28,816 nucleotides of DNA from a virus. Where the stretch lies: the IMG/VR virus record IMGVR_UViG_3300017964_000054, positions 1 to 28,816 of that record. One strand, written 5' to 3'. A program made the position numbers and the translations under genes. Below, one piece after another: positions 1,948-6,850 of the stretch; position 1 is the first letter of the stretch, and each line of letters starts with the position of its first letter. The notes below the pieces were generated by a model. It searched no databases, was not told the DNA's origin, and saw nothing but the letters and a program-made list of their open reading frames with translations.

Positions 1948-2142
1948 TTAAATACCCTGCGCAACCTTTCTTTCTTCGGCTATTCTTTTCATTTGCTCGA
2001 TCAATAGATTTACATAAATTTCTCTCTCCCATGGCATCATCGATTCTATGTCGCTGAGTGAATAGTTATGGTTCTCCATTAATTGAAAATTCACTTGATA
2101 AAAATTCACTAGTGTGTCATGTGAGAGAGCTATTAAAAAAAA
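1948..2142 (-). CDS. 51: gp51-like baseplate hub assembly catalyst, read by -1 frameshift from gp26
   Basis: The frame encodes a short helical protein with FYQVNFQLMENHNYSLSD and MPWEREIYVNLLIEQMKRI, which I recognise as the marine T4-like gp51 pattern. In T4, gp51 is an assembly factor for the central baseplate hub and is not part of the virion. The TAA at 1948-1950 abuts the ATG of the next gene. No ATG precedes the conserved part: the only in-frame ATG (2077-2079) would cut off the FYQ-NFQL segment, and a GTG at 2107-2109 lacks a clear ribosome site. The frame is open upstream into the gp26 3' end and lies -1 to gp26 across a run of eight T at 2135-2142. I give the coordinates of the frameshift product's 64-codon extension. 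Translation from GTG 2109 alone is the main alternative. Confidence 0.75.
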   Translation of the reverse strand, partial: FFLIALSHDTLVNFYQVNFQLMENHNYSLSDIESMMPWEREIYVNLLIEQMKRIAEERKVAQGI

Positions 2143-2156
2143 TCCTGTAATCCCTG
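2131..2156 (-). promoter_or_regulatory. putative -1 ribosomal frameshift site joining gp26 to gp51
   Basis: Read on the minus strand, gp26 ends GAT TTT TTT TAA. The heptamer T TTT TTT (2142-2136) fits X XXY YYZ, both codons re-pair perfectly after a one-base slip back, and the gp26 stop follows immediately. An AGGG sits at 2155-2152, nine bases upstream of the T run, where an internal Shine-Dalgarno element could stimulate slippage. Downstream pairing is weak (TCAC with GTGA). Transcriptional slippage on the T8 run would give the same fusion. This is inferred from sequence alone. Confidence 0.55.
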
Positions 2157-2843
2157 TAATGTATATTTATTCTCTTTTTTACATTTTTCACAAGTAAATT
2201 CTGCATCATGTTTCAATGATGGTAGATTGTTTACATATTCCAAAATCTTTTGATAGTGATCAGTAGAAAGACTATCCATAAATTGTTTAATTTCTTCTTC
2301 CGGTTCATCTTTAAATAAGAATGTATCATCTTCTGTATGAAGTGTTTGTAGGCACATCAAAGATAAGTTATAAAGAATCTCAGTATAGCTTTCACCTTCT
2401 AGGATCTTTTCTTTTTGAATTGCATCCTTATATTTTGGAAATCCCATTACCAATTCAATATCATCATTTAATTTGATTTTTGGATTTGGAAATTCTTTTG
2501 ATTCAATCTTAATAGTAGATACATCAATATCAACTGAGTTGGGATGCTCACATTCACATCTCAGCAAGATAGTACTTGTCTCACCAACTGACTTTGATCT
2601 AATCTGTAAGAACATATATTCAACGTCAAATGTCGATAGATTATTAATGTCTATATCTTCTTCGATACATTGTTTTACTATATCAAGAATAGCCTGAGCT
2701 GCCATTAGACTATCATCAGATTCAAATGCCATAAGCAATACTTTTTCTTCACCTACATTGTAGGGTCTAAAATGAATCTTTTGTTGGAGAGAAGGTAATA
2801 CTGTATTAAATTTAGGATAATTGTTTAGTTTGGGTAGAGCCAT
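2133..2843 (-). CDS. 26: baseplate hub assembly protein gp26
   Basis: This 236-residue protein (T4 gp26 is 208) belongs to the T4 baseplate gp26 family. Recognisable parts are the N-terminal LPKLNNYPKFNTVLPS, then FRPYNVGEEKVLLMA (typical of the family), a Cys-containing beta region (LRCECEH), and a C-terminal CEKC before the ending LQDFF. In T4, gp26 takes part in central hub assembly. The two cysteine pairs could bind metal, which is inference. The ATG has GAGG seven bases upstream (2850-2853). It lies downstream of the tail-tube-like gene in the same operon. Its last two codons are the TTT TTT of the putative slippery site, so a 236-residue protein and a gp26-gp51 fusion of about 298 residues could both be made. 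Confidence 0.9.
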   Translation of the reverse strand: MALPKLNNYPKFNTVLPSLQQKIHFRPYNVGEEKVLLMAFESDDSLMAAQAILDIVKQCIEEDIDINNLSTFDVEYMFLQIRSKSVGETSTILLRCECEHPNSVDIDVSTIKIESKEFPNPKIKLNDDIELVMGFPKYKDAIQKEKILEGESYTEILYNLSLMCLQTLHTEDDTFLFKDEPEEEIKQFMDSLSTDHYQKILEYVNNLPSLKHDAEFTCEKCKKENKYTLQGLQDFF

Positions 2844-2859: not shown

Positions 2860-3570
2860 TTAAAAAATATTATTTACAAACCCTATAATGTTAGATCTAA
2901 TTGTACTAGTCAAAGCATCTTTAAGATTTGATGGAGATACGATAAATGGAGCTTTCCAGTCAGTAAAACTTAATTGAATATTTAATTCAACTATACCATC
3001 CATCTCATTGTTTAATTGTATTGCATTCATAGTTGTTGGGAATGCATCAATAAGTTTACATTTATAGATCACAAGATCGTTTAGTTGATCATTAAGACCC
3101 AAAATAGTTTCGCCAAGTTCAAAGTCAGAAATTTTAGGAAGAACATTTCCTATACCACTTGAGAATTCCTGTCTATATCTTTGAGGTAGGCTCTTGACTT
3201 TTTTAAACTGTTCTATTTCAACATCTCTAGAATAGTCTTTTTTGTAACCTACTTCATATGTATTTGTGTTTGTTGCAAGGTTTTGCCATGTTTCAAAATA
3301 TTCCCTTACACCATAATCATTAAGAACATGGAATGTCATAGACACATCTTGAATTAAAAATCCATTGGCAATACGCTCTTGTATTAAACCATAATTAAAA
3401 GTATTGGTAGTAATCTGCCTACCAGGTAATTGAACATCCCTACAAAGTATATTCATTTCCTCAGATCTAGCCCCAGGAAGGCTTGGAAGCTTTACGCGCC
3501 ATAGGTTATTACGGGCAAGGCCACCTTTAGCACTTACTAAACTTTTAAACTGATCAACTGTACCAGCCAT
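2860..3570 (-). CDS. tail-tube-fold protein, probable baseplate tail tube initiator (gp54-like)
   Basis: The 236 residues show the tail-tube family pattern: NLWRVKLPSLPG near the N-terminus, CRDVQLPGRQI, then the alternating strands of DVSMTFHVLNDYGVREYFETW, VYKCKLIDAFPTTM, and a closing ELNIQLSFTDWKAPF. T4 gp19 (163 aa) and gp54 (320 aa) share this fold. gp54 sits on the baseplate beside gp48 and starts polymerisation of the tail tube. The length falls between the two, and the neighbours (hub assembly genes on this strand, gp48 just across the divergent promoter) favour gp54 over the major tube protein. The ATG overlaps the preceding stop by one base (TAATG), indicating translational coupling. 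I am confident of the fold and less so of the exact identity. Confidence 0.65.
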   Translation of the reverse strand: MAGTVDQFKSLVSAKGGLARNNLWRVKLPSLPGARSEEMNILCRDVQLPGRQITTNTFNYGLIQERIANGFLIQDVSMTFHVLNDYGVREYFETWQNLATNTNTYEVGYKKDYSRDVEIEQFKKVKSLPQRYRQEFSSGIGNVLPKISDFELGETILGLNDQLNDLVIYKCKLIDAFPTTMNAIQLNNEMDGIVELNIQLSFTDWKAPFIVSPSNLKDALTSTIRSNIIGFVNNIF

Positions 3571-5806: not shown

Positions 5807-6850
5807 ATGCCAATGTTTGCTAATTTTCCAATTACAACCTATAATTTTGGTGAAGAGACATCAAATGTTTTATTTGATAATATCACCACCTATATAGATC
5901 TTGTTGATGAATTTAAAGATGATTTAAGTTATTACTCAGAATACTTTATTCAGGACGGCGAAAGACCAGACATACTTTCTTACAAACTTTATGGCACAAC
6001 TGAATATTATTATCTATTTTATCTTTTAAATGATAAGTTAAGAGTAAGTGGCTGGCCGCTAGATGAATCTGAATTGATTGAAAAGGCAAACGAATTCTAC
6101 CCACACAAAGCAATTCAGACTGATAACAACATAGCAGTAGGAATGTATAAAGGTGATTGGGTTGCATCTAGTGATTACAACACCGTAGAATATCCAAGCT
6201 TTAAAGGTAAGATCATAGAGAAAAATCTCATGCTTGGACAATTAATTGTAGAGCCAGCAACTGAGATCAGAGACATTAATATTACTAATCCAGGTTCTGG
6301 ATATACATCCCCTCCCACAGTAACCATAACAGGTGGTAATGGTGAAGGCGCAACAGCAATCGCAACAATTGCCAATGGATCAGTAACAGCTGTTACCATT
6401 ACTAACAGAGGCACTGATTATACATCTATACCTACAATTACTTTATCATCTCCTCAGGTTGGTGCTAATACAGCAACTGCTGATGCTCTTATTTCATCTA
6501 CTACAATTAACGCAGGTGACAGATTATATTCAGATCCAGGTGAAGACAATATTGACAATTGGAACCAGGTACCAAGTTCTATTCCCAACTTTAGAGTTGT
6601 AGGAGTAAAGGATCAAACTCTTGGTATTCATCATTATGAAAATGCAGATGGGGAATGGATTGATCTGGATGTACTAAATACTGGTGGAGTTAATATATCC
6701 CAATTTGTTGGAGATACAACAGGTGCTGGTGGAGTAACATACCGCCAACAACTACGTAAAGAAAATGATGAATTAAGACAAATAAATGTTTTTCTTCCAC
6801 GAATTGCACGACAGCTGCATTTACAATTTAATAAACTTTTAAGGGTTTAA
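5807..6850 (+). CDS. 53: baseplate wedge gp53 with an inserted beta-repeat module
   Basis: The N-terminal 145 residues follow the gp53 pattern: FPITTYNF, SYYSEYFIQDGERPDILSYK, YGTTEYYYLFYLLND (T4 gp53 has the like segment RPEELANAIYG then YWVLLMCND), then YKGDWVA and VEYPSFKG. The C-terminus has the family ending ENDELRQINVFLPRIARQL. T4 gp53 is 196 residues; this one is 347. The excess is mainly residues 155-230, two copies of a glycine-rich beta unit (NPGSGYTSPPTVTITGG, then NRGTDYTSIPTITLSSP). gp53 clamps the wedge onto the hub in T4. The first ATG (5807) has no strong ribosome site, and a second ATG two codons later (5813) is an alternative start. Confidence 0.9.
   Translation: MPMFANFPITTYNFGEETSNVLFDNITTYIDLVDEFKDDLSYYSEYFIQDGERPDILSYKLYGTTEYYYLFYLLNDKLRVSGWPLDESELIEKANEFYPHKAIQTDNNIAVGMYKGDWVASSDYNTVEYPSFKGKIIEKNLMLGQLIVEPATEIRDINITNPGSGYTSPPTVTITGGNGEGATAIATIANGSVTAVTITNRGTDYTSIPTITLSSPQVGANTATADALISSTTINAGDRLYSDPGEDNIDNWNQVPSSIPNFRVVGVKDQTLGIHHYENADGEWIDLDVLNTGGVNISQFVGDTTGAGGVTYRQQLRKENDELRQINVFLPRIARQLHLQFNKLLRV

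Follow-up and report, generated by a model that had tools for sequence, protein, structure and literature searches.

Tail assembly chaperones in lambda and T4-like phages

In phage lambda the tail genes V, G, T and H stand in that order. Xu, Hendrix and Duda reportedly described in 2004, for lambda gpG and gpGT, a tail frameshift that is conserved among dsDNA phages. The tail assembly chaperone (TAC) genes of T4-like phages are said to have been identified by Vladimirov, Gautam and Davidson in 2022 (Virology), whose abstract reportedly states that frameshifting is retained in several T4-like groups and that T4 uses genes 26 and 51. A review of 2016 treats T4 as an exception to the G-GT frameshift (PMC5009743). 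Two articles, both citing work of 2022, mention the coding of TACs by two genes in some T4-like phages (PMC10885494) and poly-T -1 slippery signals in the TAC-N genes of T4-like phages (PMC12846349).

The DNA analysed here, called the window, is the whole 28,816-nucleotide stretch of the IMG/VR virus record IMGVR_UViG_3300017964_000054 and comes from a marine T4-like phage. Judged from its sequence, a locus on the minus strand of the window is very probably a TAC gene with a -1 programmed ribosomal frameshift, which would give a short product, TAC-N, and a long one, TAC-NC.

Gene order and protein families

The four genes of the locus are all encoded on the minus strand. The tail tube protein gene (2860-3570; phrog_45, E 3.6e-32; 36% identity to the C48C1 tail tube protein) lies upstream, in the position of lambda V. 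Gp26 (2133-2843, 236 aa), the predicted short tail assembly chaperone TAC-N, matches PF12322 (E 3.8e-50) and phrog_150 (E 4.2e-55). The gp51 frame, the predicted TAC-C, extends over 1948-2136 as entered by the -1 shift and encodes 62 residues and a stop (LIALSHD...VAQGI). It matches phrog_634 (E 3.4e-24) and the C-terminal end of phrog_150 (E 7.8e-10), aligning to profile positions 231-281 of 282, the last 51 positions; phrog_150 therefore includes proteins in which both parts are joined. With these profile matches for both parts (PF12322, phrog_150 and phrog_634), the pair belongs to the T4 gp26/gp51 family.

The ATG of a 607-aa ORF (124-1947) comes directly after the gp51 stop. This ORF is the probable tape measure protein, assigned mainly by position and length, and the sequence search for its identity gave no match better than E 0.02, a weak one to the 'putative tail tape measure' of HTVC008M. 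Complete ORFs at this place in relatives (PHM1_019, Mosig_133) have 626-655 aa and T4 gp29 has 590 aa; in HTVC008M and RHph_I1_18 the tape measure is annotated at the same place. The gp26/gp51 pair sits between the tube gene and this ORF, and the order of tube, gp26, gp51 and tape measure parallels the V, G, T, H of lambda.

A small ORF of about 90-127 aa separates gp51 from the tape measure gene in a number of phages of Pelagibacter, Methylophilales and Rhizobium (L084 2686-2958, L087 2403-2735, L088 2411-2740 and L089 2875-3255). Elsewhere in the window, at 5807-6850 on the plus strand, a baseplate wedge-like N-terminus is fused to a region, at about residues 150-240, with matches to numerous unrelated structural proteins of phages; this region is probably a mobile surface domain.

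An AlphaFold2 model of gp26 (pLDDT 85.6) was compared with the PDB. Only the HK97 tail assembly chaperone (2ob9) reached an appreciable probability (0.75 for one chain, 0.63 for another; TMt 0.51, E 1.1), a result that is no more than suggestive of a shared fold. Searching PDB sequences with profiles of gp26 and of gp51 yielded no relative, and the PDB fold search with a T4-type gp51 gave nothing usable.

The gp26-gp51 junction

On the minus strand gp26 ends with TTA CAG GGA TTA CAG GAT TTT TTT TAA, the last four codons being GAT (2144-2142), TTT (2141-2139), TTT (2138-2136) and TAA (2135-2133). These contain a run of eight T (2142-2135), within which a slippery heptamer T TTT TTT (2136-2142), read as GAT TTT TTT in the 0 frame, is followed immediately by the stop codon. 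An AGGG (2152-2155), which is a weak Shine-Dalgarno-like element, lies 9 nt 5' of the T-run, and the junction reads AGGG, then ATTACAGGA TTTTTTTT AATAGCTCTC.

The gp51 frame is -1 relative to gp26 and is open from 2166 to 1948, that is, across the junction. It has no ATG, GTG or TTG until 26 nt past the gp26 stop, and its first potential starts, GTG at +26, GTG at +41 and ATG at +56, are all within the conserved gp51 domain. If the ribosome slipped by -1 on T TTT TTT (2142-2136), base 2136 would be read twice and 236 and 62 residues would be joined into a product of 298 aa. The earlier note had described the gp26 end, the AGGG nine bases from the T-run, an open -1 frame with no ATG before the conserved part of gp51, and a fusion of about 298 residues; the sequence agrees to the base with these observations.

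The DNA of the window is AT-rich, and a T8 run alone is not unusual in it (3 seen versus 7.7 expected by chance). In 9,400 codons T TTT TTN occurs in frame just 3 times, and only at gp26 does it stand at the end of a gene.

Conservation of the probable frameshift site

The junction was compared with those of 80 IMG/VR relatives, named phages and further IMG/VR sets; after the T4-types had been removed, clustering of gp26 at 80% identity gave 52 clusters. Gp51 is in the -1 frame at 194 of the 195 loci where it was detected beside gp26. The sole +1 locus is that of S-SCSM1 (L101, about 1994-2010), in which T TTT TTC is kept and which possibly carries a one-base sequence error. Homopolymers are error-prone, and S-SCSM1 may be a case of such an error; a sequencing or assembly error in the T-run of the window would mean that gp26 and gp51 are one continuous ORF or two ordinary genes. 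Such an error is unlikely because the T8 junction is identical in eight IMG/VR contigs with eight metagenome ids (L001-L008), and the same frame relation is found at 194 loci, some of them without long T-runs. This explanation is exceedingly improbable, and the relatives already refute it for practical purposes.

An in-frame T TTT TTN is present in 48 of the 52 clusters, and in most clusters a stop codon follows the heptamer at once or after one codon. The second codon of the heptamer varies (28 TTC, 17 TTT, 2 TTA and 1 TTG). Its first Phe codon is always TTT (background 0.68; log10 P -8.0 under synonymous background usage) and the codon before this Phe, which is GAT, AGT, AAT, TCT or GCT, ends in T in every case (log10 P -8.4), both values being made too small by the shared ancestry of the clusters, which overstates their independence. 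The amino acids at the site vary among clusters while the slippery letters stay constant. In the relatives as a whole the site far exceeds what chance would give. Slippery F-F/F-L(TTR) dipeptides account for 48 of 48 at the site versus 6 of 62 elsewhere in the same genes (Fisher 6e-25). Protein constraint does not account for the codon choice at the site.

In 26 of the 52 clusters, the window included, the -1 frame has no start codon before +18, and most of these 26 keep the fused peptide FF-[LR]-x-x-L-S-H-[DE] through the join, ahead of any start. In the other 26 some potential start codon is close to the junction, and there gp51 may be translated separately. The comparison with relatives proposed by the earlier note turned out in its favour: the T-run heptamer and the -1 relation are kept in them, and the lack of a gp51 start often is as well. 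A separate small gp51, made from an internal start or by termination-reinitiation and never fused to gp26, would agree with the ATG at +2, +5 or +8 of the gp26 stop in the P-SSM5 group, PC-Liy1 and S-WAM1, and with the internal starts used in database annotations. It is nevertheless improbable: it does not account for the clusters that lack an early start or for the peptide conserved ahead of any start, it would make the fixed -1 relation and T TTT TTN needless, and in T4 gp51 the two domains are truly fused.

In the records of S-WAM1 (L082, 2501-2671), S13 (L092), ORM_20 (L095) and AsFcp_4 (L096) the gp51 region 3' of gp26 is unannotated, and the annotated gp51 of L083 and L085 begins at an internal start.

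The gp26-stop junctions of the Ackermannviridae-like loci L097, L191, L201 and L099 are without T TTT TTN (for example, GAG ATT TTC ATT TAA), and their gp51-like frame is still -1. In some of these junctions the stop overlaps an ATG (TAATG), in others an ATT stands there instead, a sequence pattern that suggests reinitiation or another recoding signal.

Candidate stimulatory signals

Pairing of the 24 nt upstream of the site to the anti-Shine-Dalgarno end of 16S rRNA was compared with a synonymous null. Over the cluster set the pairing exceeds this null (Wilcoxon 3.6e-6), the SD-like element being enriched over the relatives; in the window alone it is not significant (p 0.185).

The mean z of RNA structure at 5-65 nt 3' of the site is -1.80 over 48 clusters, 21 of which are below -2, while control offsets give about 0 from -260 to +130 and -0.59 at +190. 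Against synonymous-codon nulls the mean z is -1.84 (p 9e-9), with controls near 0. The strongest 3' hairpin is that of S-WAM1. In the P-SSM5 group the stem of the 3' hairpin is nearly invariant, and covariation hence offers no test. In the window itself no stimulatory structure is predicted 3' of the site for any offset or length tried (z -0.1, 0.18 and -0.65); the directly following stop codon may serve as the stimulator instead.

These signals also bear on slippage of RNA polymerase, which on a run of eight T, as in the window, could give a mixed mRNA population. In most relatives a C, A or G interrupts and shortens the run in the same codon phase (T TTT TTC, TTA or TTG); a fixed phase together with the RNA structure and SD-like pairing found in relatives are features of ribosomal slippage. 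Polymerase slippage is accordingly highly improbable.

Gp26 and gp51 of T4

T4 serves as a natural control for the site. In T4 genes 26 and 51 are separate and divergent, whereas the window has one gp26-gp51 locus with gp51 in the -1 frame and a slippery site. The T4-style arrangement of two genes is absent from this 28.8-kb fragment, which holds a single gp26/gp51 copy; a second copy may lie elsewhere in the genome. The gp26 of the window, which matches PF12322, is homologous to T4 gp26 and gp51. T4 gp51 spans both parts (phrog_150 positions 13-280 of 282; PF12322 on residues 1-201), and the profile-profile match of gp26 to it is strong (probability 97.3, E 2e-11). It resembles T4 gp26 and consists of a gp26-like domain followed by the gp51 tail; T4 therefore has the short and the long forms as paralogues. 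The description of T4 gp26 and gp51 in the earlier note as separate hub-assembly factors needs correction: two genes encode them, but the two proteins are not unrelated.

The slippery site is absent from all readable gp26 ends of T4-type phages (L206 is cut off before the end), and Phe-Phe, where kept, is written in the non-slippery form TTC TTT. Among the Straboviridae, S13, AsFcp_4 and PC-Liy1 retain the frameshift site. In a tree of the TAC-N domain T4 gp26 and gp51 form sister groups (91/74); the tree, with long branches and a midpoint root, is consistent with one duplication in the T4 group.

A comparison of cyanophages published in 2010 noted that their gp51 is without the first ~200 residues (PMC3037559), a shortfall that the present analysis attributes to the frameshift.

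It is possible, if somewhat doubtful, that one history covers all these arrangements. Almost all of the non-T4 gp26-type phages compared would have kept one ancestral T TTT TTN site with lineage-specific stimulators (a strong 3' hairpin, an SD-like element, or neither, as in the window); the T4 group would have replaced the site once by gene duplication; and the Ackermannviridae-like phages would, after loss of the heptamer, produce the long form or a free-standing C-terminal domain by another route, perhaps by reinitiation at TAATG/TAATT.

Proposed mechanism and comparison with known systems

The site, the frames, their conservation, the gene order and the T4 paralogy are established by the sequence; we infer from them the occurrence of slippage, its rate and the chaperone function of the products. 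For the majority of ribosomes translation would end at the TAA codon, with gp26 (TAC-N, 236 aa) as the short product. In a minority, with tRNA-Phe on TTT TTT, a slip of one base backwards on T TTT TTT would lead into the gp51 frame and yield the long form, TAC-NC, of 298 aa (...LQDFF-LIALSHD...). Lambda G/GT suggests by analogy that copies of the short form would coat the tape measure protein, whose gene comes next, and that the extra C-terminal domain on the few long copies would recruit the tail tube protein.

The proposal of the earlier note that gp26 and gp26-gp51 act like G/GT is favoured by the gene order, the short and long pair of T4 and the weak match to the HK97 TAC fold, but the link itself, published in 2022, is not new. 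The window shares with lambda G/GT the position between tube and probable tape measure, a second frame that is out of phase and start-less, and a conserved heptamer at the end of the first gene. Its heptamer is of the T TTT TTN type and its TAC-N has about 236 aa; the likeness is one of arrangement. The T4-like TACs of Vladimirov et al. are reportedly the same genes, gp26/gp51 as TAC-N and TAC-NC. In phage Adele (Vandenendeviridae/Andersonviridae) a -1 frameshift likewise occurs at a T-rich motif at the TAC-N end, with GTTTTT in place of T TTT TTN; the two are likened by motif and position (PMC12846349).

The published case that gp26/gp51 of T4, which were long regarded as factors of hub assembly, correspond to lambda G/GT is thereby extended. 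Among gp26-type marine phages the probable frameshift is the usual condition, and T4 is likely the derived exception. Many public phage records lack gp51 or annotate it wrongly. Frameshift versus gene duplication makes a clean evolutionary case on why the short-to-long ratio matters. A frameshift of this kind in T4-like phages has already been described, and the window is a well-supported further case; new here, beside the known systems, are the breadth of the set, the codon and SD statistics, the 3' structure signal and the Ackermannviridae-like exceptions.
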